A program made the translations under genes and the position numbers. From positions 1,240,001 through 1,304,000 of the forward strand of contig NZ_CP075339.1 of assembly GCF_024399335.1 (NCBI RefSeq): DNA of 64,000 bases, in the 5' to 3' direction. This document shows, piece after piece, positions 19,561 through 34,960 of the stretch; the stretch's first letter is position 1; each line of letters begins with the position of its first letter. The notes under the pieces were generated by a model. The model did no database searches, was not told where the DNA came from, and saw only the letters and a program-made list of their open reading frames with translations. The stretch comes from Leucobacter aridicollis. GTDB lineage: Bacteria; Actinomycetota; Actinomycetes; Actinomycetales; Microbacteriaceae.

Positions 19561-19640
19561 TTCTGTGCGACGAAGCACCTCAGGTGCTCTCGTAAGTGCT
19601 CACAACTTCCGAGGCCTGGTCGACCACTAGTCTGCTCAGT

Positions 19641-20543
19641 ATGAGCACGCACAATATCGATGAAGATACACTCACCGCACGCATCAATGAGGTCGCCGAA
19701 GAGGCAGGGGTGTTCGCTTTCGCGCACGCTCGCGACATCGACACCGGCGTCGAAGTTGGGTTCAACTCAGACGCGCCGACAGTGACTGCGTCCGTGTTTA
19801 AGGTTCCGGTGCTTGTCGAGTATGTGCGTCAGGTTGCTGCGGGGGAGCTCGATCCTGCGACGCGCATCCGCGTCTCGCCAGCAGAGGCGACACTCGGACC
19901 GACAGGGCTGAGCGTATTCTCGGACGACGCCGACTGGTCGCTGCGCGACATCGCAACTTCGATGATCACCGTCAGTGACAACGCGGCAACAGATATCGTC
20001 ACGGGACTGGTGACAGTGGATCGCGTCAACGCGACGATGCGCGAGCTCGGGCTGCCGGGTACACAGCTAACCGGCGATTGCGCTTTGATCTTTGAAGAGA
20101 TCGCGAGAGATCTCGCAGCGGCGGGTATTGGCACGATCGACGGCATGGCAAGCGTCGACTACGAGACCGCTGCGACGTTTACCGCTGCGACGCCCGAAAA
20201 GACGAACCGCACAACGCCCCGCGAGGCTGCGTCGCTGCTGCAGCAGATCTGGACTGACGCAGCTGCGCCCGCGGAGGCGTGTGCTGAGGCGCGTCGAATC
20301 CTCGGTTTGCAGGTGTGGCCGCACCGGTTGAGCTCCGGGTTCCCGCGCGACGACGTCAAGATCTCGGGCAAGACAGGCACCATCGGCATGGTGCGCAATG
20401 AGATCGGCGTCGTCGAGTTCCCGGGCGGCAAGCGTCACGCGATCGCAGTTTTCCTCCGCGGAAAGACCCTGCAGTCACGAAACCCCGCGGCTGACCGAGC
20501 GATCGGCGATATCGCGCGCCTGCTCTCCGACGCGCTGGGGTAG
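19641..20543 (+). CDS. Class A beta-lactamase-like serine hydrolase, no signal peptide
   Basis: About 300 residues with the three penicilloyl-serine hydrolase motifs in class A order: S-V-F-K (nucleophile Ser), S-D-N, and K-T-G in SGKTGT. I use the ATG at 19641 (MSTHNIDED); an upstream ATG at 19596 would add 15 residues that do not resemble a signal peptide. With no export signal it would act in the cytoplasm, unlike true beta-lactamases, so a peptidase/amidase or esterase role is as likely. It lies convergent to the D-aminopeptidase gene and may relate to D-peptide metabolism next door, but this is speculative. Confidence 0.82.
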   Translation: MSTHNIDEDTLTARINEVAEEAGVFAFAHARDIDTGVEVGFNSDAPTVTASVFKVPVLVEYVRQVAAGELDPATRIRVSPAEATLGPTGLSVFSDDADWSLRDIATSMITVSDNAATDIVTGLVTVDRVNATMRELGLPGTQLTGDCALIFEEIARDLAAAGIGTIDGMASVDYETAATFTAATPEKTNRTTPREAASLLQQIWTDAAAPAEACAEARRILGLQVWPHRLSSGFPRDDVKISGKTGTIGMVRNEIGVVEFPGGKRHAIAVFLRGKTLQSRNPAADRAIGDIARLLSDALG

Positions 20544-20631: not shown

Positions 20632-21474
20632 CTAGCGGTTGATGAGCGGCAACATGCCGCGCAGTGACGCCGCAGCGAACTGGTAGCACGCGGTGATGAA
20701 GTTCACTGCCTCGCGCGGCGACTGCGCGCTCAGCTTGATCGTGCGGATTGCAGTCCGCTCAGCAGTTGGGATCATCTGCGCGAGCTCGGCGGAGGGGATG
20801 TTCGGCATGTCGATCTCAACCTCGATGACCTCGGGCACCGGCGCGAGCTTCAGCGAGCTCGCACCCTCGACCGCCCGCTTGGCCGCGTCGTGGATGAGGC
20901 GGCGCGATTCGGTGGGGGAGACGGAATCCGCCGCGTTGTAGCCGTGCGCCTCCTTCACGGTCACCGTCTCGATACCGGGCAGCGAGGTCGAGATGTCGGC
21001 GCAGATCACGTCGTCGCCGGTGAGCAGCGCGACGGGCACGCCCACCGCAGCGGCCTGCAGCGCGTTCACGTCTGCTTCTGAGACCGGCTTTCCGTTCACG
21101 CGGACCTCGTTGAAGAGCGAAGAATAGGTGTGTGCGATGACTCCTGGCCCGCCTGCGGCCGCGTGATAGCCGATGAACAGCGCAACGTCGTGATCCTTGT
21201 CGATGCCCTCGGCCATGCAGTCGACCTTTGGGCTTCCGAATACGACGCGGGCGCGCTGATCGAGATCCTCATGAATGAGGTTATCCATGGTGCCGTGGCT
21301 GTCGTTGATTGTGACCTCCGTCGCACCGCCCGCGAACGCCCCCTCGATTGCTGCGTTCGCCTCACCAGTCATGAGCTGCTGCGCGCGTGGGTAGCCGTGA
21401 CCGCCTCGGACCACCTGGTCCATTGTGGCGATGCCTGCGACACCCTCCATATCGATTGAAATGTATACGCGCAT
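20632..21474 (-). CDS. dppA: D-aminopeptidase DppA (peptidase family M55)
   Basis: Zinc-dependent D-stereospecific aminopeptidase, 280 residues. All residues known from Bacillus subtilis DppA are in place: Asp8 and Glu10 (DMEG), His60 (NDSHG), His104 (GYHAA), catalytic His115 (VIAH) and Glu133. It releases N-terminal D-amino acids such as D-Ala from short peptides in the cytoplasm. GAAAGG lies 6 nt before the ATG at 21474; the longer open frame upstream lacks family similarity. It is divergent from a dipeptide ABC importer with 212 nt between them, and that importer operon encodes further D-peptide and D-amino acid enzymes. Confidence 0.95.
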   Translation of the reverse strand: MRVYISIDMEGVAGIATMDQVVRGGHGYPRAQQLMTGEANAAIEGAFAGGATEVTINDSHGTMDNLIHEDLDQRARVVFGSPKVDCMAEGIDKDHDVALFIGYHAAAGGPGVIAHTYSSLFNEVRVNGKPVSEADVNALQAAAVGVPVALLTGDDVICADISTSLPGIETVTVKEAHGYNAADSVSPTESRRLIHDAAKRAVEGASSLKLAPVPEVIEVEIDMPNIPSAELAQMIPTAERTAIRTIKLSAQSPREAVNFITACYQFAAASLRGMLPLINR

Positions 21475-21686
21475 GACAAACCTTTCAGTGGGAATGGGAA
21501 CCGGCGGCGTCGCACCGTCGCGGAGCTCGTGGCCTCCAATCTCGAAGCATATGAGGTATCGCAATCGGCGTGTTGGTATGCCGGACAGTTTTTGAGCTCG
21601 TTGCTTGGCGCGTCCGACAATGCGACGCGATTCACTTCTCCGCAATACTGAATCCAGCAGCTACGACCCAACGGCGAGGAGAGCGC
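21475..21686. promoter_or_regulatory. Divergent promoter region of dppA and the importer operon
   Basis: The 212-nt space between two divergent start codons must hold both promoters. I see no clear palindrome or conserved operator; two loosely similar segments around GCCGGACAGT and GTCCGACAAT are the only candidate half-sites. Confidence 0.4.
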
Positions 21687-22709
21687 ATGCCAGCAATTTC
21701 TGCGAGTCCAATAGCGGACACTGATACACCACAACCGCAGAAGCGAGAATCGTTCCTGGCCCGCAAACCCTGGGCCGCGTATCTCCTGCGCCGCGGCGGC
21801 TACTTCGTCGTATCGATGTTCGTGCTTGTCACTGTCGCATTCTTGCTGATGCAGCTCATCCCGGGGGATCCCGCTCGTGTGTCCGCCGGTGAAAACGCCT
21901 CGCCTGAGGCTGTTGAAGCGCGTCGGGTTGAGCTCGGTCTCGACAAGCCGGTGTTCGTCCAGTACCTCTCGTTCTGGAAGGGCCTCTTCACGGGCGACCT
22001 CGGCGAGTCGATCAGCTCGCGCATGCCTGTGATCGACGTCATTATGCAGCGGGCGCCAGCTACCCTCGAGATCGCGTGGTCGGCAGTCGCGATTGCGCTT
22101 GTCGTCGCGATTTGCCTGGGGCTCACGTTTGGCGCGCTCACGCACGGAGATCGCCGACCCGGTGTCGACATCGGCTTCAATTCGGTCACCGCAGTGATTG
22201 CACTCATCCCCGAGTTTCTCGCGGGCATCCTGCTCGTCTACTTTTTCGCGGTAACGCTCGATTTGCTGCCTGTCGCGGGACGCGGCGATTTCGCCTCGTA
22301 TATCTTGCCGGTGACTGCTCTCGCCTTTGGGCCGGCTGCCGCGCTCACCCGGATCGTCCGCGCTGAGACGCTGACAGTGCTGCAGCAGGATTACGTTCGT
22401 ACGGCTCGCGCCCGCAGGATGTCACCAGTTCGCCTGTACGGAAAACACGTGCTCCCGAACCTGTTGACCTCGACACTCACAATCTCGGGTATGGCGCTCG
22501 GAGGCATGATCGCCGGAACCGTGATCGTTGAGAGCATCTTCGCTTGGCCGGGTCTCGGCAGCGTCATCGTGCAGTCCATTCAGGAAAAGGACTACCCGCT
22601 TGTGCAGGCGATCATCATCTTCTACGGAGCGGTTGTGCTGCTCATCAACCTTGCTATTGACATGGCGCTGATCCTGCTCGATCCGCGTACCGCATTGGAC
22701 AAATCATGA
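21687..22709 (+). CDS. Peptide ABC transporter permease, DppB type
   Basis: A 340-residue inner-membrane permease with the DppB/OppB pattern: an early transmembrane helix (about 35-55), the LIPGDPAR segment, and the C-terminal half with the EAA-type loop (YVRTARARRMSPVRLYGKHVLPN) that contacts the ATPase. GAGGAG lies about 6 nt before the ATG at 21687; upstream in-frame codons do not look coding. Its stop overlaps the next start by ATGA, so the two are translationally coupled. First gene of the operon for uptake of small peptides. Confidence 0.92.
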   Translation: MPAISASPIADTDTPQPQKRESFLARKPWAAYLLRRGGYFVVSMFVLVTVAFLLMQLIPGDPARVSAGENASPEAVEARRVELGLDKPVFVQYLSFWKGLFTGDLGESISSRMPVIDVIMQRAPATLEIAWSAVAIALVVAICLGLTFGALTHGDRRPGVDIGFNSVTAVIALIPEFLAGILLVYFFAVTLDLLPVAGRGDFASYILPVTALAFGPAAALTRIVRAETLTVLQQDYVRTARARRMSPVRLYGKHVLPNLLTSTLTISGMALGGMIAGTVIVESIFAWPGLGSVIVQSIQEKDYPLVQAIIIFYGAVVLLINLAIDMALILLDPRTALDKS

Positions 22710-24577
22710 CGACATCCCAACGATTCCTGCATACGCTGCGGACACCCGTCGGCGTAGCCGCAAGCATCGCGTTTCTCGCGCTCGCCTTTCTCGCGATCTT
22801 CGCGCCGATCATCTGGGGTCAACAGGCCTCTGTGACGAACACGAGCCTGATCTCGCAGCCTCCGAGCCCGGAGCACGTCTTCGGAACTGACGGGAGCGGC
22901 CGCGACATCTTGCTTCGCACGCTCGTCGCAACTCGGCTGTCGGTCGTAATGGCGCTCACCGCCACAGCAATTGGCATCGTCTGCGGCGTCGTCCTCGGAC
23001 TGCTGCCGCTCATACTCGGCGGAACGCCAGGTCGGTGGATTGTGGCTGGCATCAATATTGGTGTCGCGTTTCCCGGCCTGCTGCTCGCAATCGCGTTCTC
23101 TGTCATCCTGGGTCAGAGCGCCGCGGCCGCGAGCCTCGCGATCGCGATCGCGATGATGCCGAACTATGGCCGCTTTGTGCACAACCTTGCGGCGTCTGTG
23201 TGGGGCCGCGACTACGTGTCCGCTGCGCTCGTGCTCGGCGTGCCCAAGCGTCAGATCGTCTTCAGGCACGTGCTCCCAAACATCCGCGATCCGCTGCTCG
23301 TGAACGCGACGCTCACTGCAGGCGGAACGCTGCTCGCGTTCGCCGGCCTGTCGTTCCTTGGGCTCGGCGTGCAGGTGCCGCAGTTCGACTGGGGTCGGAT
23401 GCTGAACGAGGGCATTAGCCGGATCTTCGTCACGCCGGCGGCCGCACTTGTTCCTGGCGTCGCGATCATCCTCGCCGGTCTCACATTTGTGCTCCTCGGC
23501 GAAGTGCTGAGCCGCACGCTCAACACGGGTGCGAGGCGTACGCTGTCTGCTCGGGTGCTTCGGAAGCTGAAGCGTGTCAGGCTGCGCGCGGCGGAAGACG
23601 CGAAACAGGATCACGCCACCATCGACACTGGCGAGGCAAGCGAGAACGTCCTTTCGGTTCGCGGGCTCAAGGTGTTTGCGCCCGGAAGTGACGCCGAACT
23701 GCGCCCGCTCGTCGACGGAGTCTCGTTTGATATCGGCCGCGGCGAGATCGTCGGTGTCGTCGGTGAGTCGGGCTCGGGAAAGAGCCTCACGCTCATGTCG
23801 ATTGCTGGCCTCTTGGAAGCGCCACTGCATGTCACGGCGCGCTCTGCAAGCTTCGACGGTGAAGATTTGGTGTTGAGCGAAGACGGCCATCCGCGCTCGC
23901 TCGACCACCACTTCGGCACCAAGCTCGCGATGGTCTTCCAAGACCCGATGTCGTCCCTGAATCCCGCTCTGCACGTGGGAACGCAGGTTGCCGAGAGCGG
24001 CCAGCTGCACCTCGACATGACGCGCGCCGAGGCGAAGGCTACGGCTGTCGCGAGGCTTGAGGACGTCAGGATCCCTGATGCGGAGCGCCGTTACTCGCAG
24101 TACCCACACGAGTACTCGGGCGGTATGAGACAGCGCGCGATGATCGCAGCGGGTCTCATGGGTAAGCCGTCGCTGATCCTCGCCGATGAGCCAACAACCG
24201 CACTGGATGTGACGGTGCAGGCTGGCATCCTCAAACTGCTGGGGCAGATCAATGAGGAGGACGGCACGGCGATCATGTTTGTCTCGCACGACATCGCTGT
24301 GGTGACGTCGCTCTGCACGCGCGTACTCGTCATGTACCGGGGCCGGCTCGTTGAAGACATTAGTGCAGACGAGCTACGGGCCGGGAACGCGGCGCACCCG
24401 TACACGCAGGCCCTGATGGCGACGGTACCGACAATGAGTAGCCCGCGTGGCGAAGCGATGGCGTCGATTCCTGATGATGCTGACTTCACGGGGACGTCCC
24501 CGATTGGGGTTATCGAGGCGGTTCTCCCGCCGACCGAGGCCATTCGTCTGATCGACTTCGAAGGAGCAGCAAAGTGA
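22706..24577 (+). CDS. Fused peptide ABC permease (DppC) and ATPase (DppD)
   Basis: A 623-residue two-domain protein. Residues 1-290 are a DppC-type permease (HVFGTDGSGRDILLR, EAA-loop GRDYVSAALVLGVPKRQIVFRH... region near 168-190). Residues 315-600 are a DppD-type ATPase with Walker A GESGSGKS (353-360), signature YSGGMRQRA and Walker B ILADEPTTALD. The two are separate genes in most peptide importers; the link here (about 271-315) is charged and the frame is uninterrupted. It overlaps dppB by 4 nt and the next ATPase by GTGA. It supplies one permease half and one ATPase half of the importer. Confidence 0.92.
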   Translation: MTTSQRFLHTLRTPVGVAASIAFLALAFLAIFAPIIWGQQASVTNTSLISQPPSPEHVFGTDGSGRDILLRTLVATRLSVVMALTATAIGIVCGVVLGLLPLILGGTPGRWIVAGINIGVAFPGLLLAIAFSVILGQSAAAASLAIAIAMMPNYGRFVHNLAASVWGRDYVSAALVLGVPKRQIVFRHVLPNIRDPLLVNATLTAGGTLLAFAGLSFLGLGVQVPQFDWGRMLNEGISRIFVTPAAALVPGVAIILAGLTFVLLGEVLSRTLNTGARRTLSARVLRKLKRVRLRAAEDAKQDHATIDTGEASENVLSVRGLKVFAPGSDAELRPLVDGVSFDIGRGEIVGVVGESGSGKSLTLMSIAGLLEAPLHVTARSASFDGEDLVLSEDGHPRSLDHHFGTKLAMVFQDPMSSLNPALHVGTQVAESGQLHLDMTRAEAKATAVARLEDVRIPDAERRYSQYPHEYSGGMRQRAMIAAGLMGKPSLILADEPTTALDVTVQAGILKLLGQINEEDGTAIMFVSHDIAVVTSLCTRVLVMYRGRLVEDISADELRAGNAAHPYTQALMATVPTMSSPRGEAMASIPDDADFTGTSPIGVIEAVLPPTEAIRLIDFEGAAK

Positions 24578-25353
24578 CGAGTCAGCTCGTATTCGAATCA
24601 ACTAGCATCACTTATGGTCACGGCTCGTCGCTCTTCACTGCGGTTGACGAGGTCAGTCTTGATCTTCGGGCTGGCGAGGTGTTGGGACTCGTCGGCGAGT
24701 CTGGCTCTGGTAAATCGACGATTGCGCGAGCGGCTGTTGGGCTCTCCGAGCCCTCATCGGGGCGGATTCTTCTCGAGGGCACAGAGATCTCGCACGCCCG
24801 TGGTGACAGAGTGCGCGAACGCCGCCGGGTGCAGATGATTTTTCAGGATCCGCAGTCGTGCTTCAACCCGAGGCGCACGATCGGGCAGTCGCTTGACGAG
24901 GCGCTCGTCGCAGCTCACAAGCGTGATGGTTCTGCTATCCCCGGGATCAAGGCGCGAAAAGACGAAATAGCGAATCTGCTGCGTGCGGTCGCGTTGCCGA
25001 CAGACACTGCCCAGCGAATGCCGACACAGCTCTCTGGCGGACAGCGCCAGCGTGTCGCCGTGGCTCGCGCAATCGCTGCGAAGCCGGCGGTGATTCTTGC
25101 TGACGAGATCACGTCTGCGCTCGATGTCTCGGTGCAGGGGTCCGTGCTCAATCTGCTGAAGAAGCTGCAGCGCGAACTCGGTTTCTCCATGCTGTTCATC
25201 AGCCACAATCTCGCTGTTGTGCGCCTTGTGTGTGACCGAGTCGCGGTTATGCGTCAGGGCAGTCTCGTCGAGGTCGGAGAGACGCTCGAAGTGATGCACA
25301 ACCCGCAGCACGAGTACACCCGTGAGTTGATCGCAGCGGTGCCGACGCTGTAG
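24574..25353 (+). CDS. Peptide ABC transporter ATPase, DppF type
   Basis: A 259-residue ATPase with Walker A GESGSGKST, the QDPQSCFNPRRTI segment of the DppF/OppF group, signature LSGGQRQRVAVARA and Walker B ILADEITSALD. The start is a GTG (24574) overlapping the previous stop, with AAGGAG upstream. It pairs with the ATPase domain of the preceding fused protein to drive peptide import. The 139 nt after it contain no gene and could carry a promoter for the binding protein. Confidence 0.93.
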   Translation: MTSQLVFESTSITYGHGSSLFTAVDEVSLDLRAGEVLGLVGESGSGKSTIARAAVGLSEPSSGRILLEGTEISHARGDRVRERRRVQMIFQDPQSCFNPRRTIGQSLDEALVAAHKRDGSAIPGIKARKDEIANLLRAVALPTDTAQRMPTQLSGGQRQRVAVARAIAAKPAVILADEITSALDVSVQGSVLNLLKKLQRELGFSMLFISHNLAVVRLVCDRVAVMRQGSLVEVGETLEVMHNPQHEYTRELIAAVPTL

Positions 25354-25492
25354 GCCGTCACACTTTCACACTTGCATCACCAAACTGTTCAGGTCAACAG
25401 ATTGGGAGCGCAGATTTGTCGAGCACGCCGAAGTGCGCGACGTGCACTCCCGAGATGATTGTCACCTGGGCCTCAACACGAAGGAACACACT

Positions 25493-27088
25493 ATGAAGGC
25501 GTATAAGATCCTTGGACTTGCTGCTGTCGGGGCGCTGGCCCTGTCAGCATGCACGGGAGGTGGCGGCGGCGCTACCCCAGAGGCTGGTGGCGGAGGGGAG
25601 CCCGTCGTTGACGGCACGCTCAACTTCGCGCTGACTCGCGACCCGGGAATGCTGTTCACCCCGCTGAACCCGAGCGCAGTGCTCAGTTCGGTCACGCCGT
25701 GGGCGTACGAGTCCCTCGTCTACTTCGACACCGACGGTTCGACCAAGGGCTGGCTTGCGACTGAGTGGGAGGAGACTCCGACCTCGCTGCACTTCAAGGT
25801 CCGCGACGACGCGGTCTGTGCAGACGGGACCAAGCTCACCGCTGAGACGATCGCGAACAACTTCCGGTGGATTGCAGACCCGGCCAACAGTTCAACGGCG
25901 ATTAACCTCGTCGTGCCTGCCGACGCGAAGATCGAGAATGACGACACGAGCGTCACGATCACGACGACGGAGCCAGACCCCTTCCGCATCACTGCGATTG
26001 GTACTATGCCGATCTTCTGCCAGGCCGCGCTCGATGACCCTAAGAGCGTTGCGACCGCGACGAATGGTACCGGCCTGTACGCGATGACCGAGGCTGTCAC
26101 CGGCGATCACTACACCTTTGAGCGGCGTGACGACTACGCATGGGGCCCTGAGGGGGCTCCGACGGGGGCGACACCGGGCGTTCCCAAGACAGTCGTCATC
26201 AGCATCGTCGAGAACGAGAGCACCCGCGCAAACCTGCTGCTCTCGAAGGAACTGAACCTCGCGACAGTGACAGGTCCTGACGCAGACAGGCTCGAAGGCA
26301 AGGTTGACGTCTACGCGCAGGGCAAGCTGCTCACAGGCGGCATCCTCTACAGCCAGGCAGCCGATCAGCCCACCTCGGACCGCGACGTGCGCATTGCGCT
26401 CACGAAGGCGCTCAACCTCGATGAGCTCATGCAGGTGAGCTCGGCAGGTAAGGGCGAGCGGGCGCAGCGCCTCGCCGTAGCGAACCCGCAGGTTTGTCAG
26501 TATGACGCGGCGGGCCCCAACCTTCCGACAACGGACGTCGCTGAGGCTGAGAAGATGCTCGACAAGGCGGGCTGGGTCAAGGGTTCCGACGGCAAGCGCG
26601 CGAAGGACGGCCAGAAGCTCGACCTCGAGTTCGCCTGGCAGTCAAAGGGTGCCGAGACAGCATCGACTGCCGAGATGATGGCGGAGCAGTGGGCGAAGAT
26701 CGGCGTTGGAGTGAACCATCACGGCGCAGACTACGGCGCGTTCATCGAAGAGATCAGCAAGCCCGGCGCGGCGTCGACGCTCGACACGATCATGCTCTCC
26801 GCGAACTTCCCCGTGCCGAGCGCCCTGATGACGTATTTCACCGGTGAGACCCCGCCGAATGGCAACAACTTCATGGCGCTCAACAACCCGAAGTTCGACG
26901 AACTCGTCGCAGAGGCGAACACGCACACTGGCACCGAGGCCTGCGCGGCCTGGGAGACTGCCGAGGCTGAGATGTACAAGTCGGCCGACTACGTTCCATT
27001 CGCGATGACTGCCACCTCGAGCTTCTCGCAAGGCATTGAAGCGTACGGCATCGACGAGTTCTACACGGCGATCATCCTCGTCAAGTAG
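25493..27088 (+). CDS. Peptide-binding lipoprotein of ABC importer (SBP family 5)
   Basis: A 531-residue extracellular solute-binding protein, DppA/OppA superfamily. It has a lipoprotein signal: MKAYK, a hydrophobic run and lipobox LSAC with Cys20 as the lipidated residue, then a Gly-rich linker. The mature part has the family architecture of a long family-5 binding protein (WAYESLVYFDTDGSTKGWLA near the start, closing with a MYKSADYVPF segment). AAGGA lies 7-8 nt before ATG 25493. It lies between the importer ATPase and the hydrolase genes and is expected to select the peptide. Ligand is not predictable from sequence. Confidence 0.93.
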   Translation: MKAYKILGLAAVGALALSACTGGGGGATPEAGGGGEPVVDGTLNFALTRDPGMLFTPLNPSAVLSSVTPWAYESLVYFDTDGSTKGWLATEWEETPTSLHFKVRDDAVCADGTKLTAETIANNFRWIADPANSSTAINLVVPADAKIENDDTSVTITTTEPDPFRITAIGTMPIFCQAALDDPKSVATATNGTGLYAMTEAVTGDHYTFERRDDYAWGPEGAPTGATPGVPKTVVISIVENESTRANLLLSKELNLATVTGPDADRLEGKVDVYAQGKLLTGGILYSQAADQPTSDRDVRIALTKALNLDELMQVSSAGKGERAQRLAVANPQVCQYDAAGPNLPTTDVAEAEKMLDKAGWVKGSDGKRAKDGQKLDLEFAWQSKGAETASTAEMMAEQWAKIGVGVNHHGADYGAFIEEISKPGAASTLDTIMLSANFPVPSALMTYFTGETPPNGNNFMALNNPKFDELVAEANTHTGTEACAAWETAEAEMYKSADYVPFAMTATSSFSQGIEAYGIDEFYTAIILVK

Positions 27089-27096
27089 CACTCGAA

Positions 27097-27135
27097 ACGT
27101 GGGCGCCGCATGCCGACTGGCGGCGGCGCCCACGT
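27097..27135 (+). terminator. Intra-operon hairpin after the binding-protein gene
   Basis: 13-bp perfect stem (27097-27109 and 27123-27135) with a 13-nt loop, 9 nt after the binding-protein stop and 54 nt before the next start. It has no T-run. It may raise binding-protein mRNA level by partial termination or 3' protection, a common arrangement in importer operons. Confidence 0.6.
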
Positions 27136-27189
27136 GCACCACCCAACACTAACTTTCAGGCACACCACACCAGATCACAGGAGTCAACG

Positions 27190-28614
27190 ATGACGAACCC
27201 GCTGAGCCCCCTCGCTTTCGACACCGCGCGGTGGGAAGAGTTTCTCGGTGAGACTGCGAGAAGGCACCACGTGCCAGGAATCGTCGCAGGCGTGCTGCGA
27301 ATCGACGAGGCGACGGGCCGCCAGCAGCGGTTTGTCGCAAGCACGGGGCTTGCGAACAATCGCACGGGTGTCGAGTCCACACGAGACACTCTCTGCCAGA
27401 TCGGCTCGGTCACGAAGATCATCACCGCGACGATGATCATGCAGCTGCGCGAGGAGGGCAAGCTCGAGCTTGAGACACTCGTCTCCGAGCTGCTCCCAGA
27501 CACCCCGCTATCGACGACGGACGACGGGTCGAAGATCACGATCCGTCACCTCCTCTCGCACACGTCGGGCATCAACGGCGATGTTTTCACCGACACCGGC
27601 CGTGGAGACGACTGCATTGAGAAGTACGTTGCCCTGCTGAAGGACGCCGAGCCGCTGTTCAGCCCCGGCGCCGGCTGGTCGTACTGCAACTCGGGATGGG
27701 TTGTGCTCGGCCGGATCATCGAACTCATCGACGGCCGCACCTGGGACGCCTCGGTCCAGGCGCGTATCAGCCAGCGTCTCGACCTGCACCAGTTCTTGAC
27801 GCTGCCCGAGCAGATCATGAGCCACCGCTACCAGCATGGTCACACCCGCGAAACGGGTGCGAAAGATTGGGTGCCCGCACCGACGACTGCGCTGCCTCGC
27901 TCGGTCGGGCCTGCAGGCATCATCAACAGCAGCGTCGACGACCTGCTCAACTTCGGTCGATCCTTCCTGCGCGGCGGCCTCGGCGTGGCTGGCACAAACG
28001 TGCTGAGCCCGGAGTCGGTGGAGCTGATGGCGCAGGTCCAGGCGGATCTCGGCGACGCAGACGCGCTGTCTCCGCAGTGGGGCCTCGGCTGGATCCTCGA
28101 CGAGTGGGAGGGCCACCGCCTCTTCTGGCACGGCGGTACCACTGTCGGGAATAAGGCCTGGTTCCAAGTGCTCCCCGATGATGGCGTTGTCATCGTCGTG
28201 TTCTGCAACGGCGGTATCGCGAACCGCGCGGGCGGCGAGATTGTGGAGGCCTTCGCGCGCGAGTTCGTCGGCGTCTCCACCGGCGCGGGAGTGAGCCCGT
28301 CGGGCCCTGCGAGCCAGGCGGTCGTCAAGGACGAGTGGCTCGGCACGTACGGCGACTTCATCACCTCGGTCGAGGTGTTCAAGACCGAAGACGGCCAGGT
28401 CAAGGCGAAGCTCACCCAGGGCCTCGACCCCAGCTCAGTCACCTCCACGCTCTTCGACATGCTGCCAACCGCGAAGCCAAACCGCTTCGTCTCCCGCCCA
28501 GACTCGCTGTCGACATGGTCGCAGCTCACGTTCACAATTGTCGACGGTCACCCATGCTTGTACGCTGACATTCGGTGCCTGCGCAAGCGTGACGAAGCTG
28601 AAGCTGCAGCCTAA
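27190..28614 (+). CDS. Serine hydrolase, beta-lactamase class C / D-aminopeptidase-type family
   Basis: A 474-residue cytosolic-looking penicilloyl-serine hydrolase. Motifs: S73-V-T-K76, Y165-C-N167 and H314-G-G316, the class C/DD-peptidase pattern. A C-terminal extra domain (about 370-470) resembles the beta-barrel found in some D-aminopeptidases and related esterases. No signal peptide is visible. AGGAG lies 6 nt before the ATG. Its stop overlaps the next start (TAATG). The position in a D-peptide operon makes a D-specific peptidase or amidase role more likely than antibiotic resistance; this is inference. Confidence 0.85.
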   Translation: MTNPLSPLAFDTARWEEFLGETARRHHVPGIVAGVLRIDEATGRQQRFVASTGLANNRTGVESTRDTLCQIGSVTKIITATMIMQLREEGKLELETLVSELLPDTPLSTTDDGSKITIRHLLSHTSGINGDVFTDTGRGDDCIEKYVALLKDAEPLFSPGAGWSYCNSGWVVLGRIIELIDGRTWDASVQARISQRLDLHQFLTLPEQIMSHRYQHGHTRETGAKDWVPAPTTALPRSVGPAGIINSSVDDLLNFGRSFLRGGLGVAGTNVLSPESVELMAQVQADLGDADALSPQWGLGWILDEWEGHRLFWHGGTTVGNKAWFQVLPDDGVVIVVFCNGGIANRAGGEIVEAFAREFVGVSTGAGVSPSGPASQAVVKDEWLGTYGDFITSVEVFKTEDGQVKAKLTQGLDPSSVTSTLFDMLPTAKPNRFVSRPDSLSTWSQLTFTIVDGHPCLYADIRCLRKRDEAEAAA

Positions 28615-30089
28615 TGCAACGCGTCATCTTGCGCGGAGGCCGGGTGGTGGATCCCGGAAACGGGACCGACCGCGTCGCCGACGTGCTCATTGAGAACGGC
28701 AAGGTCGCTGCAGTCGGGTTGGAACTCCGTGTCGAAGACGCCGAGGAGATCGACGTCGCAGGCAAGATCGTCGGGCCTGGCTTCGTTGACCTCCACAGCC
28801 ATGTGAACTCGATTGCGGGTCAACGGTTGCAGGCCCGTGACGGTGTCACGACGGCGCTCGAACTCGAGGCAGGTCTGCTGCCCGTCGAGCTCGCGTACAC
28901 GAAGGCGATGCAAGAGGGGCGTCCGATTAACTTCGGGTTTTCAGCCTCCTGGGGGATGGCGCGAGCCGAAGTGCTTTCGGGGAGATCAGCAAATGCCGAC
29001 TTCGCCGAGGGGCTTTCGATCCTTGGAGATCCTGCGTGGCAGGCTGACTCAACACCGGCGCAGCTGCGCGCATGGCTCGGACGCCTCGAGAGCGAGATCG
29101 CCGATGGGGCGCTCGGGATCGGAATCCTGCAGGGCTACGCGCCGCGTACTGACCCAGCCGAGTACCTCGCAGTGAACGAGCTCGCGGCGCGCGCTGGTGT
29201 GCCGACGTTCACTCACGTACGCGAGATCACTGAGGCCGATCCGACGACGCCGATGGACGGTACCGAGGAAGCCGCACGCGCCGCGATGGAGTTCGGCGGA
29301 CAGGTGCATCACTGTCACGTGAACAGCACCTCGCGCAGGCACATTGACCGCACGCTCGGGGTCATCGAGCGGGCTCGCGAGGGCGGCGCCGCCATCACCG
29401 TCGAAACGTACCCCTACGGCGCGGGCAGCACGGGCATCGGCGCAGCCTTTCTTGCGCCCGAACGGCTTGGCGTCTGGGGGATCTCGCCATCGAGTATCGT
29501 CATCGTCGCCACCGGAGAACGGATCCGTGACGCCGAGCACCTTCGGCACATGCGCAAGACTGACCCCGGCGCCGCGTGCATCGTCGCGTTCATCGACGAC
29601 GAGGATCCTGCGGACCGCGCCCTGCTTGAGCGCGCGCTCGCGTTCCCCGACGGAATCGTTGCGTCGGACGCGATGCAGGTCAACTGGCCAGACGGCACAG
29701 TTGACACGCGCGAGTGGCCGTTGCCAGCGGGTGGCACCACCCATCCGCGCACAGCGGGAACCTTCGCGCGCTCTCTCCGCATGATGGTACGTGAGCAGCA
29801 GGCTTGGACTTGGCTCGAGGCCTTTCGCCGCTGCAGCTTTCTGCCTGCGCGCGTCATGGACGCGACGACACCGGCTTTTGCGCAGAAGGGGCACCTTGGC
29901 CTGGGAGCCGACGCCGACATCATCGTGATTGACCCGGATCGCGTGACGGACCAGGCGACGTACCTCGATAGCACCCGGCCCTCGATCGGGATCGAGTGCG
30001 TCTTGGTCGCCGGCGAGTTCGTCGTGCGCGACGAAGACATCGTGACTGACGCCTACCCTGGGCGCGGACTCCGCGGTCACCTCAGGTGA
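28614..30089 (+). CDS. Amidohydrolase, D-aminoacylase/dihydroorotase-like
   Basis: A 491-residue metal-dependent amidohydrolase. The entry strand carries the HxH pair (His61, His63 in GFVDLHSH), later metal-binding candidates are in the FTHVRE and HHCHVNS segments, and the C-terminal small domain (KGHLGLGADADIIVIDPD) is typical of this superfamily. Relatives include N-acyl-D-amino-acid deacylases and D-aminoacyl hydrolases. It starts one nt before the end of the preceding gene. In context it probably cleaves an amide in a D-amino acid-containing compound. The exact substrate is unknown. Confidence 0.85.
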   Translation: MQRVILRGGRVVDPGNGTDRVADVLIENGKVAAVGLELRVEDAEEIDVAGKIVGPGFVDLHSHVNSIAGQRLQARDGVTTALELEAGLLPVELAYTKAMQEGRPINFGFSASWGMARAEVLSGRSANADFAEGLSILGDPAWQADSTPAQLRAWLGRLESEIADGALGIGILQGYAPRTDPAEYLAVNELAARAGVPTFTHVREITEADPTTPMDGTEEAARAAMEFGGQVHHCHVNSTSRRHIDRTLGVIERAREGGAAITVETYPYGAGSTGIGAAFLAPERLGVWGISPSSIVIVATGERIRDAEHLRHMRKTDPGAACIVAFIDDEDPADRALLERALAFPDGIVASDAMQVNWPDGTVDTREWPLPAGGTTHPRTAGTFARSLRMMVREQQAWTWLEAFRRCSFLPARVMDATTPAFAQKGHLGLGADADIIVIDPDRVTDQATYLDSTRPSIGIECVLVAGEFVVRDEDIVTDAYPGRGLRGHLR

Positions 30090-30106
30090 CACCCCTCATC
30101 CTTGCC

Positions 30107-30129
30107 CCGAGCGGCCACAAGCCGCTCGG
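30107..30129 (+). other. Small intra-operon hairpin
   Basis: 9-bp stem (30107-30115 and 30121-30129) with loop CACAA between the amidohydrolase and the M20 peptidase genes. It may adjust expression between the two halves of the operon. Confidence 0.45.
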
Positions 30130-30159
30130 AAGACAGAGAAGACAGAAAGGTCTATCGAC

Positions 30160-31281
30160 ATGACACCGCACACGGTGCGACTCGATGACATCGTCGAGAC
30201 GATTCACACCCTCGTCGAATGCGAGTCCCCCTCAGACAATCACGACGCGGTTGCGACGTCGGCCACGCTTGTTGCCGAGCTCGGCGAAAAGCTGCTCGGA
30301 GTTTCACCGGAGCGGATCGTTCTCGACGGGGTGAGCCACCTAAAGTGGAGTTTCGGGGAGACGACTCGGGTGCTGCTCGTCGCGCACCACGACACTGTAT
30401 GGCCGCTCGGAACGCTCTCGCGGCTGCCGTTCACACACGCTGACGGCGTGCTGACCGGCCCAGGCTGCTTTGACATGAAGACTGGCCTCGCAATGGCGAT
30501 GCACGCGACAGCCGCGCTCGCTGAGCGCGACGGCGTGACGCTACTCGTGACCGGCGACGAGGAACTCGGCTCGCCGAGTTCGCGATCCCTCATCGAGGAG
30601 ACTGCGCGCGGCGCGCGCGCCGCACTCGTGCTTGAAGCCGCCGCCGACGGTGGTGCGCTGAAGATTGAGCGCAAGGGTGTCTCGCTGTACGAGGTCGTTG
30701 TGTACGGCGTCGCCGCGCATGCGGGGCTCGAACCAGAAAAGGGTGTTAACGCGTCGCTAGAACTCGCGCACCAGCTCATCGCCGTCGCGGGGCTCGGCGA
30801 TGCTGAGCTGGGAACCACTGTGACCCCTACTGTCGCGACAGCAGGCACGACGAGCAACACTGTGCCCGCGCGAGCGTCGTTCAAGGTCGACGTGCGGGCG
30901 CGCACGTTCGCCGAGCAGGATCGGGTACACGAGGCTATGCTCGCCCTTCGCCCGGTGCTCGCCGGCGCGCAGCTCGAGGTCGTTGGCGGCCCGAATCGGC
31001 CTCCGCTCGAGTCTGCGTCGTCAGCCGCACTCTTCGATAGGGCGCAGGCCGCGGCGGCGACGCTCGGCCTCGAGCCTCTCGAGGGTGTCGCTGTCGGCGG
31101 CGCGAGCGACGGCAACTTCACTGCCGGAATCGGGGTTCCGACACTCGACGGACTCGGCGCTGTCGGCGGCGGGGCGCACGCCGAGAGCGAGCACGTGCTC
31201 GTCGCCGCGATCGAGCCGCGCACCCTGCTGCTCACTGAACTCATGACGAGCCTGCTCGACGAACCGAAAGCTGGTGCATGA
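30160..31281 (+). CDS. M20-family metallopeptidase (ArgE/DapE/CPG2 type), probable N-acyl-L-amino acid deacylase
   Basis: A 373-residue di-zinc hydrolase. Visible ligands: His76-x-Asp78 in AHHDTV, bridging Asp105 in FDMK, general base Glu134 and ligand Glu135 in TGDEELGS, Glu159, and a C-terminal His in GGGAHAESEH. The dimerisation lid domain is present in the middle. It is directly followed (4-nt overlap) by a GNAT acyltransferase and then an N-succinylamino acid racemase; in Geobacillus the same trio turns D- into L-amino acids, with the M20 enzyme hydrolysing N-succinyl-L-amino acid. I infer that role here; a simple peptidase activity remains possible. Confidence 0.88.
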   Translation: MTPHTVRLDDIVETIHTLVECESPSDNHDAVATSATLVAELGEKLLGVSPERIVLDGVSHLKWSFGETTRVLLVAHHDTVWPLGTLSRLPFTHADGVLTGPGCFDMKTGLAMAMHATAALAERDGVTLLVTGDEELGSPSSRSLIEETARGARAALVLEAAADGGALKIERKGVSLYEVVVYGVAAHAGLEPEKGVNASLELAHQLIAVAGLGDAELGTTVTPTVATAGTTSNTVPARASFKVDVRARTFAEQDRVHEAMLALRPVLAGAQLEVVGGPNRPPLESASSAALFDRAQAAAATLGLEPLEGVAVGGASDGNFTAGIGVPTLDGLGAVGGGAHAESEHVLVAAIEPRTLLLTELMTSLLDEPKAGA

Positions 31282-32093
31282 TGGCCGGAGACCGCATCAC
31301 CGACGAGATGAAGCGCCAGGCTCACCTCGATGCCGAGCGGGCCGCAGCCCTCACCGGAGTGACGGTGCGCGAGATGCGCGGCACTGAGGAGGAGGCGCAG
31401 GTCATCGACCTGCTCGCGCTCATCTGGGGACGCACGGCCGACAACCCTGTCGTGCCGAAGGAAATCATGCGTGTGCTCGGCAAGACGGGAAACTACATCG
31501 CTGGCGCATTTCTCGACGGCGAGCTCGTCGGCGCCGCGCTCGGACTGCACTCAAGCCCTGAGCGCTCGACGTTGCACAGCCACATCACCGGCGTGGTTCC
31601 GGGCCTCGTTGGCAAGGCAGTCGGCTACGGCATCAAGCTGCACCAGCGAGCCTGGGCGCTCGATCGCGGTATCGAAGCGATCGAGTGGACGTATGATCCG
31701 CTCGTTTCCCGCAACGCGAGCTTCAATTTCAACAAGCTTGGCGCTGTGCCTGTGGAGTACCTCGAGAACTTCTACGGACTCATGTCAGACACGATCAACG
31801 CGGGCGACTTGAGCGACAGACTGCTCGTCCGATGGCACCTGCTTGACGAGAATGTCTCGCGGCTTGCGGGCGGCGATCGATCTGGCAGTACTGTCCCGAA
31901 GGGATTCGCTGTCGCGATCCCTGACGACATCGAGGGGCTCCGCGTCACCGATCCGGACCAGGCGCGGAAGTGGCGCGGCACGATCCGCGAGCAGCTTACC
32001 TCGCACCTGAACAACGGCGCCCGCATCGTCGGATTTGAGCGCGGCACCGGCTACATCTTGCAACACGCATCAACTGAAGGAGAACAAGACTGA
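31278..32093 (+). CDS. GNAT-family N-acyltransferase, probable D-amino acid N-succinyltransferase
   Basis: A 271-residue protein of the COG3375-like GNAT group that accompanies N-succinylamino acid racemases. Landmarks are VREMRGTEEEAQVIDLLALIWG near the N-terminus, the central GVVPGLVGKAVGYGIKLHQRAWA acyl-CoA-binding segment and the WTYDPLVSRNASFNFNKLGA segment. It overlaps both neighbours (ATGA with the M20 gene; 1 nt with the racemase), so expression is tightly coupled. In the pathway known from Geobacillus it succinylates D-amino acids with succinyl-CoA. Donor and acceptor specificity here are inferred from the operon. Confidence 0.85.
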   Translation: MMAGDRITDEMKRQAHLDAERAAALTGVTVREMRGTEEEAQVIDLLALIWGRTADNPVVPKEIMRVLGKTGNYIAGAFLDGELVGAALGLHSSPERSTLHSHITGVVPGLVGKAVGYGIKLHQRAWALDRGIEAIEWTYDPLVSRNASFNFNKLGAVPVEYLENFYGLMSDTINAGDLSDRLLVRWHLLDENVSRLAGGDRSGSTVPKGFAVAIPDDIEGLRVTDPDQARKWRGTIREQLTSHLNNGARIVGFERGTGYILQHASTEGEQD

Positions 32094-33193
32094 TGAAGAT
32101 CGAGGGCTTTGAGCTGCGCCGAGTGGGGCTGCCGCTGGTTTCACCGTTCCGCACGTCGTTCAGCACGCAGACCGCGCGCGACATTCTGCTCGTAAAGGCT
32201 GTCACCGACGAGGCCGAAGGGTGGGGCGAGTGCGTCACACTCGGCGATCCGCTGTACTCACCCGAGTACACCGACGGCGCCGCTGACATCATGAAGCGCT
32301 ACTTCATCGAGGCAATTGCGAACGTCACCGACGCGACGGGCGTTGGCCAGGCACTGCACAAGTTCAAAGGCCACCCGATGGCGAAGGCGGCGCTCGAGAC
32401 CGCAGTGCTCGACGCGGAGCTGCGTGCGGAGGGTCGCTCATTCGGTCGCGAACTCGGCTCGGTCCGAGACGTCGTTCCGTGCGGCGTGTCGGTGGGCATC
32501 ATGGATTCGATCCCTGAGCTGCTCGACGCCGTCGGAGGCTACATCGACGAGGGGTACGTTCGCATCAAGCTGAAGATCGAGCCCGGCTGGGACGTCGAGG
32601 CGGTCCGTGCGGTGCGCGAGCGCTTCGGCGACGATGTGCAGCTGCAGGTTGACGCGAACACGGCGTACACGCTGCGTGACGCGCGCCACCTCGCGAAGCT
32701 CGACGACTTCGACCTGCTGCTCATCGAGCAGCCGCTCGAGGAGGAAGACATCGTCGGTCACGCCGACCTCGCGAAGATGCTGAAGACGCCGATCTGCCTC
32801 GACGAGTCAGTGACGTCTGCCCAGACCGCTGCAGCGGCGATCCGCCTCGGCGCGACGAGCGTCATCAACATCAAGCCCGGTCGCGTCGGTGGCTATCTTG
32901 AGGCCCGACGCATCCATGACCTCGCCGTCGCGGCAGGGGTTCCCGTCTGGTGCGGCGGCATGCTCGAGTCTGGCATTGGACGCGCGGCGAACATCGCGCT
33001 CGCCTCGCTTCCTGGCTTCACGCTTCCAGGCGACGTCTCGTCGAGCAGCCGCTTCTACAAGACAGACATCACGGAGCCGTGGGTCATGGAGAACGGCCAT
33101 CTCACCGTTCCTACGGGACCGGGCCTCGGCGTTGCTCCGATTCCCGAACTGCTCGAGGAGTTCACCACTAGCGTCGAGTGGATCGCGGTCTAA
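32093..33193 (+). CDS. N-succinylamino acid racemase (enolase superfamily, OSBS/NSAR group)
   Basis: A 366-residue enolase-superfamily enzyme. Catalytic residues match Amycolatopsis NSAR with a shift of two: Lys161 in K-L-K, Asp187 in VDAN, Glu212 in IEQPL, Asp237 in LDES and Lys261 in KPGR. The family performs o-succinylbenzoate synthesis and/or racemisation of N-succinylamino acids. No menaquinone genes are nearby, whereas a GNAT acyltransferase and an M20 deacylase are fused to it by overlapping reading frames, so racemisation of N-succinyl-D- to L-amino acids is the supported role. Last enzyme gene of the operon; a PucR regulator follows 42 nt later. Confidence 0.92.
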   Translation: MKIEGFELRRVGLPLVSPFRTSFSTQTARDILLVKAVTDEAEGWGECVTLGDPLYSPEYTDGAADIMKRYFIEAIANVTDATGVGQALHKFKGHPMAKAALETAVLDAELRAEGRSFGRELGSVRDVVPCGVSVGIMDSIPELLDAVGGYIDEGYVRIKLKIEPGWDVEAVRAVRERFGDDVQLQVDANTAYTLRDARHLAKLDDFDLLLIEQPLEEEDIVGHADLAKMLKTPICLDESVTSAQTAAAAIRLGATSVINIKPGRVGGYLEARRIHDLAVAAGVPVWCGGMLESGIGRAANIALASLPGFTLPGDVSSSSRFYKTDITEPWVMENGHLTVPTGPGLGVAPIPELLEEFTTSVEWIAV

Positions 33194-33235
33194 CTGTGTG
33201 GGCCTCGCTGACGTCAGCGCACGGGAGCTAGCGAT

Positions 33236-34960
33236 ATGCTTCCCTTCATGAGTGACAGGCACGAACCACGATTCACCAGGTTCAGTCTGGGACGCGTGCT
33301 TGACGACCTCGGGCTCACACTGCTCGAGGTCGTCCACGGGCGCATCGACGATCAGCAAGACATCGGCGGGGTCGTCATCTACGACCCCGTCGATGAGCCG
33401 TTGTATCCAGCGCATGCAGTCGTGCTCGGCGTGGGGGTGCACGGCAGCGAAGGGCTCGGTGAACTCATCGCGGGTCTCTCCGGCCACGCGATCGCCGCGG
33501 TCGTGGTGCGGTCGCCAGTTGAGATCACCGCTGAGACTCGTGCCCTGGCAGACGAGCACGGTATCGTCGTGCTCGGCCTCGCGCGAGGTGCGACATGGAC
33601 GCAGCTTGCAGCGCTGTTGAGGTCGCTCCTTGCCGAAGACGACGTGGGGGACACCCACGTCGATTCCCTCGGCGGCATCCCGTCGGGCGACCTATTCGCT
33701 GTCGCGAACGCCATCTCCTCGCTGCTCGACGCGCCAGTGACGATTGAGGATCGCTCCTCGCGCGTGCTCGCGTTCTCGGGTCGGCAGGAAGAAGCCGACC
33801 CGGCTCGCGCCGAGACGATCATCGGCAGGCGGGTGCCGGAGCGATACCGCCACCATCTGACGCAGCAGGGCGTCTTCCGGGACCTCTACCGAAGCGAAGA
33901 TCCGGTGGTGATCACGCGCATCGAGGCAGAGGTCGACATGTCGACCCCGCGCGTGGCAATCGGCGTTCGCGCGGGCGATGAGGTACTCGGGTCGATCTGG
34001 GCGGCGATGGACGGGCCGCTCACCGACGAGCGCAGGACCACGTTGCGCGACGCCGCGAAGCTCGTCGCGCTGCACCTGCTTCGGGTGCGCGCGGGAGCTG
34101 ACGTGCAGCGCCGGCTTCGCGCTGAGTTGTTGAGCACCGCGCTTGAAGGCGGTTCGGGTGCGAGCGAGGCGCTCTCGCGGTTGAACCTCGCCGGGCAGCC
34201 CGTGTGCGTTGTTGCGGCGGTGTTGACTGAAACCGAGCACGGGGGAGCCGCAAGCGCAGACCAGGCGCTGATGGCCGAGCGGGAGCGCTTCGCTGACGCA
34301 CTTGCCGTGCACCTGTCTGCAATGCGGCCAGGCTCAGCAGTGGCGCTGCTCGGCGACACTGTGTACGGGATCCTCCCAGAGCCGAACGACCCGACGGGCG
34401 ACCACGCAGTGCGCACGATGGAGGACTTTCTCGACCGTGTCGGGAGTCGGATGTCTGCAGTTATCGCTGTGGGCCCCCCAGCAGACGACATCGGTGGCAT
34501 CTCGCGATCGCGGGCGTCTGCTCGACGCGTGCTCAGGGCGCTCCTCGAGCCGGCGGCTGGCCAGGCGATAACACCGCACGAACCCAGTGCTGCGGGGAGC
34601 ACCGGCGGGCGCTCCCGAAGCGGCGACGTGCGGGCGCGCGTCGCGCGACTGAGCGACGTGCACGCGTCGGTGCTCATGCTCGAGCTGCGCGATCTCATGG
34701 TGTCTCGTGGCGACGAGTTCACTGGCCCCGTGTCCAGGCTCATGGAGCACGATGCCAAACAAAAGGGGCACCTCGTTGACACCCTGCGTGCCTGGTTCGA
34801 CCACTTCGGCGACGTCGCGAAGGCCGCAGACATGCTCTTTGTGCATCCGAACACGTTCAGGTACCGCCTGCGTCGAGCAGTCGAGATCAGCGGGATCGAC
34901 CTCGACAACGCTGACGACAGGTTCGAGGCGATGCTTCAGCTTCGCCTGCTCGAACGCTAG
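33236..34960 (+). CDS. PucR-family transcriptional regulator
   Basis: About 574 residues: an N-terminal PucR-type sensor region (about 1-150), a GAF-like/GGDEF-like middle and the C-terminal PucR helix-turn-helix (about 510-570, VDTLRAWFDHFGDVAKAADM then HPNTFRYRLRRA). GGGAG lies 8 nt before ATG 33236. It is encoded just after the racemase in the same direction and probably activates the D-peptide operon in response to a peptide or D-amino acid. PucR proteins usually control purine or amino acid catabolism; the effector here is unknown. Confidence 0.9.
   Translation: MLPFMSDRHEPRFTRFSLGRVLDDLGLTLLEVVHGRIDDQQDIGGVVIYDPVDEPLYPAHAVVLGVGVHGSEGLGELIAGLSGHAIAAVVVRSPVEITAETRALADEHGIVVLGLARGATWTQLAALLRSLLAEDDVGDTHVDSLGGIPSGDLFAVANAISSLLDAPVTIEDRSSRVLAFSGRQEEADPARAETIIGRRVPERYRHHLTQQGVFRDLYRSEDPVVITRIEAEVDMSTPRVAIGVRAGDEVLGSIWAAMDGPLTDERRTTLRDAAKLVALHLLRVRAGADVQRRLRAELLSTALEGGSGASEALSRLNLAGQPVCVVAAVLTETEHGGAASADQALMAERERFADALAVHLSAMRPGSAVALLGDTVYGILPEPNDPTGDHAVRTMEDFLDRVGSRMSAVIAVGPPADDIGGISRSRASARRVLRALLEPAAGQAITPHEPSAAGSTGGRSRSGDVRARVARLSDVHASVLMLELRDLMVSRGDEFTGPVSRLMEHDAKQKGHLVDTLRAWFDHFGDVAKAADMLFVHPNTFRYRLRRAVEISGIDLDNADDRFEAMLQLRLLER

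Follow-up and report, generated by a model that had tools for sequence, protein, structure and literature searches.

A Leucobacter gene cluster joining N-succinylamino acid racemase to peptide import and hydrolysis genes, and its likely role in feeding on D-peptides

Gene content and active sites

We analysed a 64,000-nucleotide stretch of Leucobacter aridicollis DNA (the window; positions 1,240,001-1,304,000 of a 3.6-Mb single-contig genome), in which a gene cluster at 20632-34960 brings genes for peptide import and hydrolysis next to a gene for N-succinylamino acid racemase (NSAR). An earlier note had listed here an M55 D-aminopeptidase (DppA), a peptide ABC importer, a serine hydrolase, an amidohydrolase, an M20 deacylase, a GNAT acyltransferase, NSAR and a PucR regulator. 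Every one of these genes is present as an intact open reading frame (ORF), and the ORF list and profile searches agree with the families assigned. The DppA gene is read from the minus strand, away from the plus-strand genes (21570-34960), which follow one another in the order importer, S12 hydrolase, amidohydrolase, M20, GNAT, NSAR and PucR (Table 1). The reading frames had been described as mostly overlapping; five junctions do overlap, by 1 or 4 bases (22706/22709, 24574/24577, 28614, 31278/31281 and 32093), but gaps precede the genes for the binding protein, S12 hydrolase, M20 and PucR. The ratio of nonsynonymous to synonymous substitution rates (dN/dS) was 0.02-0.11 for eight cluster genes compared with genome G797 of our survey, which indicates purifying selection. 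Because these ratios are low and the gene order is conserved across other genera, we do not regard the cluster as a chance assembly. The GNAT and the amidohydrolase have their closest named relatives in Leucobacter.

The NSAR protein matched the Amycolatopsis NSAR 1sja end to end (phmmer, 593 bits, residues 1-365), compared with 116 bits for the L-Ala-D/L-Glu epimerase 1jpm. The catalytic residues (K159, K161, D187, E212, D237 and K261) are all there, and with R264 they are invariant in 126 of 126 aligned rows, 125 of them different. R264 corresponds to the second-shell arginine, R266 in Amycolatopsis numbering; as it is invariant in every row, it was useless as a marker of a peptide-type clade. 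NSAR also passes the ‘menC’ model TIGR01928 (308.4 bits; cut-off 200.65), relatives are commonly labelled menC in public plasmid records, and automatic annotation would name the window protein MenC. We rejected it as the MenC of menaquinone synthesis. It is not needed there because the genome has its own actinobacterial MenC (442.8 bits against a cut-off of 288, near 172 kb) and MenD (near 209 kb).

The GNAT had no match in Pfam or NCBIfam models, nor among the sequences of solved structures. Foldseek matches of its AlphaFold model (predicted local distance difference test score 92.9) were GNATs, and its identity to the NSAR-linked GNATs from Priestia, Deinococcus and Sulfitobacter (three phyla) is 30, 37 and 38%, respectively. 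Fold prediction and sequence identity thus place it in the NSAR-linked GNAT family. An M20 gene directly precedes GNAT-NSAR also in loci that carry no peptide genes (for example L058, L061 and L063), and it is this position that points to the M20 protein as the presumed desuccinylase.

In DppA, alignment to 1hi9 recovered D8, E10, H60, H104, H115 and E133, in agreement with the earlier note; we take these to be the five metal ligands and the catalytic histidine, as in Bacillus subtilis DppA. The set is kept in 14 of 14 aligned M55 rows, one row being a repeat. Because the protein scored 199.6 bits against an NCBIfam equivalog cut-off of 430, we would class it from its sequence as an M55 relative of DppA and not as a certified equivalog. 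The solved chains closest to the S12 hydrolase are named IS11, alpha/beta hydrolase, D-alanyl-D-alanine carboxypeptidase and alkaline D-peptidase. The amidohydrolase belongs to NF006560 (617.6 bits; cut-off 340), and some of its relatives are named D-glutamate deacylase. Its HxH motif and histidine metal ligands align to 3gip and are invariant in 32 rows, as is Asp352, which was assigned by motif and lies outside the stretches aligned to 3gip. Family and position suggest the roles that we give to the amidohydrolase and M20. The amidohydrolase of G380 was rejected as an orthologue: its nearest models are dihydropyrimidinase/hydantoinase, below their cut-offs. A Saccharothrix locus (L107) holds a GNAT, an S12 hydrolase and the same amidohydrolase (65%), with no NSAR match within the stretch.

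The earlier membership list omitted one further hydrolase, the class-A-beta-lactamase-like protein (PF13354) encoded beyond DppA. We count it as a probable member because relatives occur in the NSAR loci of G380 (45% identity), G537 (47%), G822 (66%) and a Streptomyces NBC_00257 plasmid (49%, with a second copy at 43%). Judged by eye, the N-termini of this protein, the S12 hydrolase, the amidohydrolase, M20 and DppA carry no signal peptide.

The importer genes were confirmed as a peptide ABC system, with the difference that one reading frame encodes both the second permease and the first ATPase. This fusion recurs in relatives, including plasmid loci, and the binding-protein gene is duplicated in the G797 cluster (L207). 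The first permease could alternatively start at ATG 21687 rather than at 21570. Three sequences of the 95-bp intergenic region were aligned in search of a shared operator, and no clear element emerged.

Table 1. Features of the cluster, with S9-S12 fusions of related loci
Feature	Position	Strand	Basis
PF13354 class-A-beta-lactamase-like serine hydrolase	19596..20543	+	SxxK, SDN and KTG motifs; no signal peptide by eye
DppA-like M55 D-aminopeptidase, 280 aa	20632..21474	-	PF04951, 308.7 bits; phmmer match to 1hi9; six active-site residues
95-bp stretch separating divergent start codons	21475..21569		presumed promoter/operator region
Peptide ABC importer permease, DppB/OppB type	21570..22709	+	profile match
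DppC-type permease fused to first ATPase (DppD type), 623 aa	22706..24577	+	profile matches; fusion found again in relatives
Second ABC ATPase, DppF type	24574..25353	+	profile match
Solute-binding lipoprotein, family 5 (SBP_bac_5), receptor of the importer	25493..27088	+	PF00496; lipobox LSAC
PF00144 / S12 serine hydrolase	27190..28614	+	SxxK 73, YxN 165, HGG 314; no signal peptide by eye
Amidohydrolase, subfamily NF006560	28614..30089	+	HxH 61/63, Glu85, His201, His232/233/235, Asp352
M20 metallohydrolase, presumed N-succinyl-L-amino acid hydrolase	30160..31281	+	family profile; nearest solved structure carboxypeptidase G2
GNAT acyltransferase, presumed succinyl-CoA:D-amino acid N-succinyltransferase	31278..32093	+	predicted fold; identity to NSAR-linked GNATs
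N-succinylamino acid racemase (NSAR/OSBS subfamily)	32093..33193	+	MR_MLE/NSAR family match; phmmer to 1sja, 593 bits; TIGR01928, 308.4
PucR-family regulator, presumed cluster regulator	33236..34960	+	PF13556, PF17853; HTH_30; adjacent or close to NSAR in relatives
S9-S12 single ORFs in related loci	L209:7501-10866; L044:8028-11750 (-); L210:26584-29907; L219:7343-10726

Distribution of the cluster and its parts

The NSAR search matched 94 of 396 genomes in the order (E 1e-30) and 58 of 396 in the phylum (E 1e-100). From the 101 matches of the order set, 60 loci besides that of the window were retrieved; the phylum set gave 60 matches, 57 of them outside G000, G021 and G083, and 50 were retrieved. 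Absences must be read as lower bounds because a number of the loci are short contigs, and a generic ATPase profile that also matched 5 of 20 control regions was excluded from the counts. By profile counts, a GNAT lay near NSAR in 47/60 order and 47/50 phylum loci, M20 in 28/60 and 9/50, and PucR in 6/60 and 4/50; none of the three was found in the 20 control regions. Twenty-four named GNAT loci held NSAR (18), M20 (12), S12 (5) and PucR (5). S12 occurred together with another peptide gene (solute-binding protein, S9, DppA or PF13354) in 3/60 order, 2/50 phylum and 4/24 named GNAT loci. Serine hydrolases as a general trait of NSAR loci were rejected by these counts. Among six records from outside the actinobacteria, NSAR was accompanied by a GNAT in five and a MurR/RpiR regulator in four. 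In Sulfitobacter an amino-acid ABC importer accompanied it, in two Deinococcus records a substrate-binding protein and in Cytobacillus an M20; in Stenotrophomonas it sat with an amidohydrolase and a peptide transporter of the major facilitator superfamily (MFS).

Where the peptide genes do occur, they form a recognizable set that is whole or nearly so: serine hydrolase, binding protein, permease, permease-ATPase fusion, ATPase, S9 peptidase (prolyl-oligopeptidase family), serine hydrolase, M20, GNAT, NSAR and PucR. Near-complete clusters, partly shifted in order, were found in L044 and L045 (same family), Sphaerisporangium (L103), Paractinoplanes (L104 and L106), Streptomyces (L105) and L209. 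Others lie on plasmids of Streptomyces SYP-A7193, Streptomyces NBC_00257 and Arthrobacter ERGS1:01 (loci L210, L219 and L211, the last being the Arthrobacter locus), all three non-mobilizable according to the PLSDB prediction. No S9 match was found in the Sphaerisporangium locus or the Arthrobacter plasmid locus. S9 and S12 are joined in a single ORF in G260, G858 and the two Streptomyces plasmids. The window cluster is syntenic in G822, including the class-A-like hydrolase, and in G797 from DppA onward.

In a quick NSAR tree of 126 rows, which are not all independent (the L055 and L123 proteins are identical), 18 rows were labelled as having at least one peptide gene nearby, some a single such gene. 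The label required 12 gains or losses, at least eight of them forced by starred branches; shuffled labels averaged 17.1 changes, so the label is also clustered. Beyond the clade of the window, the cases richest in peptide genes (G380, G430 and G401/G537) were placed elsewhere on the tree. The peptide trait has been gained or lost several times.

A long M55 match was present in 18 of 149 NSAR-positive genomes (5/80 and 13/69; G338 and other partial or weak matches were excluded). It lay within 12 kb of NSAR in three of them: the genome of the window, G380 (18 bp) and G430 (10.8 kb). Under uniform placement in 4 Mb, linkage in 3 of 18 has a probability of about 2e-4, and in 2 of 17, leaving the window out, of about 0.005. 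Within the genus, 9 of 54 genomes carry an NSAR at least 87% identical to that of the window. The M55 survey covered 47 of the 54 and found M55 in 8 of the 9 genomes with this NSAR versus none of 38 others, eight of which carry only more distant NSARs (Fisher p 3e-8, uncorrected for relatedness). In seven of the eight, M55 and NSAR shared a contig, at a distance of 10.6-12.4 kb. DppA is a genus-level addition to the cluster, with separate linkage in G380 and G430. On many of the listed proteobacterial plasmids a P1-family peptidase gene is annotated next to M55, and such pairs may mark a further type of D- or beta-peptide locus.

Proposed function and alternatives

We think it likely that the locus lets the cell use D-amino-acid-containing peptides as nutrients, through import, cytosolic cleavage and D-to-L conversion. 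This reading builds on which genes are present and linked, on their active-site residues, on their conservation under purifying selection and on the separate MenC described above. In our model, the binding protein and ABC importer would bring short D-containing peptides into the cell, where cytosolic DppA, the S12 hydrolase and probably the class-A-like hydrolase and amidohydrolase would release D-amino acids. The GNAT would add a succinyl group from succinyl-CoA to each D-amino acid, NSAR would racemise the N-succinyl derivative, and M20 would hydrolyse the L form only, pulling the reaction towards L-amino acid and succinate. PucR presumably governs expression. All substrates, the D-specificity of the individual hydrolases, the sequence of steps and the mode of regulation are inferred. 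The chemistry of succinylation, racemisation and desuccinylation would be that of Geobacillus kaustophilus, in which Sakai and co-workers reportedly described in 2006 a GNAT-NSAR-M20 pathway from D- to L-amino acids.

The earlier note had proposed that the NSAR pathway is wired here to its own peptide import and D-specific hydrolysis. The genetic part of this proposal stands: NSAR and GNAT, at times with M20, occur with an importer and S12 or S9 in several genera and gene orders, DppA joins them in the genus, in G380 and in G430, and MenC is separate. The D-specificity of the proteins is a prediction. Peptidoglycan, previously named as a possible source, seems a poor candidate; the substrates are likely to be hydrophobic or aromatic D-residues, such as those of nonribosomal peptides or aged protein. 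D-Ala and D-Glu have racemases of their own. The characterised Geobacillus GNAT converts D-Phe, D-Tyr and D-Trp to their N-acetyl and N-succinyl derivatives, according to the available part of PMC8762209, which cites Sakai et al. 2006.

Several observations weigh against a dedicated D-peptide pathway. First, the core consists of GNAT and NSAR, and a minority of loci carry the peptide extension. A search for the same gene order had been suggested, and the order does recur in other genera and on plasmids, but S12 was found in only 4/60 order loci (p 0.57) and 5/50 phylum loci (p 0.31; pooled 9/110, p 0.35) versus 0/20 controls; none of these differences is significant, and three of the five phylum loci were retrieved because their genomes have M55. 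The G021 NSAR is 79% identical to that of the window, yet no specific partner genes lie nearby. Second, DppA is often elsewhere. Among the 18 M55-positive genomes, 13 have it on another contig than NSAR, G120 has it 66 kb away and G520 megabases away; in G858 the distance is 42 kb, and two Embleya plasmid records place DppA hundreds of kb from NSAR. In the retrieved stretches of the clusters from other genera (L044, L045, L103-L106, L209, L210, L211 and L219) DppA was not found. Third, some of the proteins differ from the enzymes expected. M20 hardly resembles the NSAR-adjacent M20 of Cytobacillus, the protein with which it was compared. We take the metal ligands of D-aminoacylases to be HxH, two His and a Cys, and the catalytic residue to be an Asp. 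The family, HxH motif and His ligands bear out the description of the amidohydrolase as D-aminoacylase-like, but in the 3gip alignment an Ala stands at the position of the Cys; the adjacent Glu85 is invariant in 32 rows. Finally, the imported ligand is uncertain because the closest solved relatives of the binding protein are nickel-binding proteins.

It is possible, although unlikely, that the neighbours have separate functions, GNAT-NSAR-M20 scavenging free D-amino acids while the importer and hydrolases take ordinary peptides. The commonest form of the module, GNAT-NSAR with no peptide genes, fits this idea, as does its company outside the actinobacteria (an amino-acid ABC importer, substrate-binding protein, M20 or amidohydrolase), although one of those six records, Stenotrophomonas, has the peptide MFS transporter beside the module. 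Separate functions are harder to reconcile with a single operon of overlapping genes, with a combination that recurs across distant genera, plasmids and shuffled orders, and with the way DppA tracks the window-type NSAR within the genus.

We find it quite improbable that the locus serves resistance to, or detoxification of, nonribosomal peptide antibiotics containing D-residues, with nutrition secondary. The window hydrolases have no visible signal peptide and an importer to supply them, whereas resistance enzymes are usually extracellular, and a complete D-to-L route would be unnecessary. S12 peptidases such as BogQ do cleave such antibiotics, according to the part of PMC9541196 that was available. 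One cluster also lies on a linear plasmid of Streptomyces, not far from transposase genes.

Recycling of murein peptides, which we take to be a task of the B. subtilis dpp-ykf region, is very unlikely: DppA and a dipeptide importer are present and the S12 family includes DD-carboxypeptidases, but the racemase is NSAR rather than an L-Ala-D/L-Glu epimerase by the bit scores given above, D-Ala and D-Glu would not need it, and neither an LD-carboxypeptidase nor a gamma-D-Glu endopeptidase was found among the scanned cluster genes, the rest of the genome not having been searched. Cell-wall debris has been proposed as a source of D-peptides by the authors of the Pab87 study (PMC2651629, available in part).

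Beyond the D-peptide pathway proposed for the window, we put forward tentatively, as a possibility that we would not yet bet on, a wider reading. Actinobacteria may share a partly plasmid-borne pathway, masked by the name menC, for eating D-peptides, including nonribosomal ones of the antibiotic type. It would combine peptide uptake, several cytosolic D-peptidases (M55, S12, S9-S12 fusions, class-A-like hydrolase and amidohydrolase) and D-to-L inversion by NSAR. The GNAT-NSAR core, elsewhere fed by amino-acid importers, would have been re-plumbed to peptides several times.

If these proposals are correct, NSAR would have a physiological role in actinobacteria, which would explain why it persists beside a true MenC, and actinobacterial genes of the NSAR kind labelled menC would be misnamed. 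There would be a testable route that returns peptide-bound D-amino acids to the L pool, and several uncharacterised hydrolases would be nominated as D-peptidases.

Known systems and neighbouring genes

B. subtilis dppABCDE has an M55 DppA beside a dipeptide ABC importer, as the window does; to our knowledge it contains no GNAT, NSAR or M20. In the window, unlike in dppABCDE, DppA is divergent and a permease and an ATPase are fused. The G. kaustophilus pathway is alike in its NSAR, its GNAT of the NSAR-linked family, its M20 and the D-to-L logic that we propose. The window adds its own peptide importer, several peptidases and PucR, and its M20 is nearest to carboxypeptidase G2 and differs from the NSAR-adjacent M20 of Cytobacillus. 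Close parallels are the Streptomyces plasmids SYP-A7193 (NZ_CP045548) and NBC_00257 (NZ_CP108083), which share the serine hydrolase, solute-binding protein, permease, permease-ATPase fusion, ATPase, M20, GNAT, ‘menC’ and PucR; NBC_00257 also has the amidohydrolase (61% identity) and the class-A-like hydrolase. They differ from the window by an S9-S12 peptidase some 1,100 aa long, and neither has a DppA match within the stretch.

A precedent for half of the combination exists in Pyrococcus abyssi. As far as the available part of PMC2651629 describes it, Pab87 (CubicO) is an S12 peptidase active on D-peptides; genes for a D-aminoacylase and a dipeptide ABC transporter lie nearby, and the authors propose that environmental D-peptides, from cell debris, are processed there. 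The window likewise groups S12 peptidase, D-aminoacylase-like and dipeptide ABC genes. The Pab87 neighbourhood described there differs in having a pyridoxal-phosphate-dependent aminotransferase and no NSAR, GNAT or M55. Among the matches listed in our literature search, titles and abstract openings held no description of NSAR combined with peptide import and hydrolysis; subscription papers were thinly covered, which makes this weak evidence of novelty. The earlier note, whose author was not aware of a description of the full combination, agrees with that result, but half of it was known around Pab87. The available parts of PMC8142540 and PMC7431475 deal with NSAR kinetics and biotechnology and contain nothing on such a gene cluster.

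Three further genes were noted outside the cluster. A succinic-semialdehyde-dehydrogenase-like gene (35044-36399) stands beside it and is conserved in G797 (98%) and G822 (87%). The gene at 18418-19500, which adjoins the cluster, is closest to the tryptophan dehydrogenase ScyB (under its cut-off) and is accompanied by a divergent AsnC/Lrp-type regulator. The gene at 15904-17811 belongs to the phenol 2-monooxygenase family (NF006144, 949 bits).

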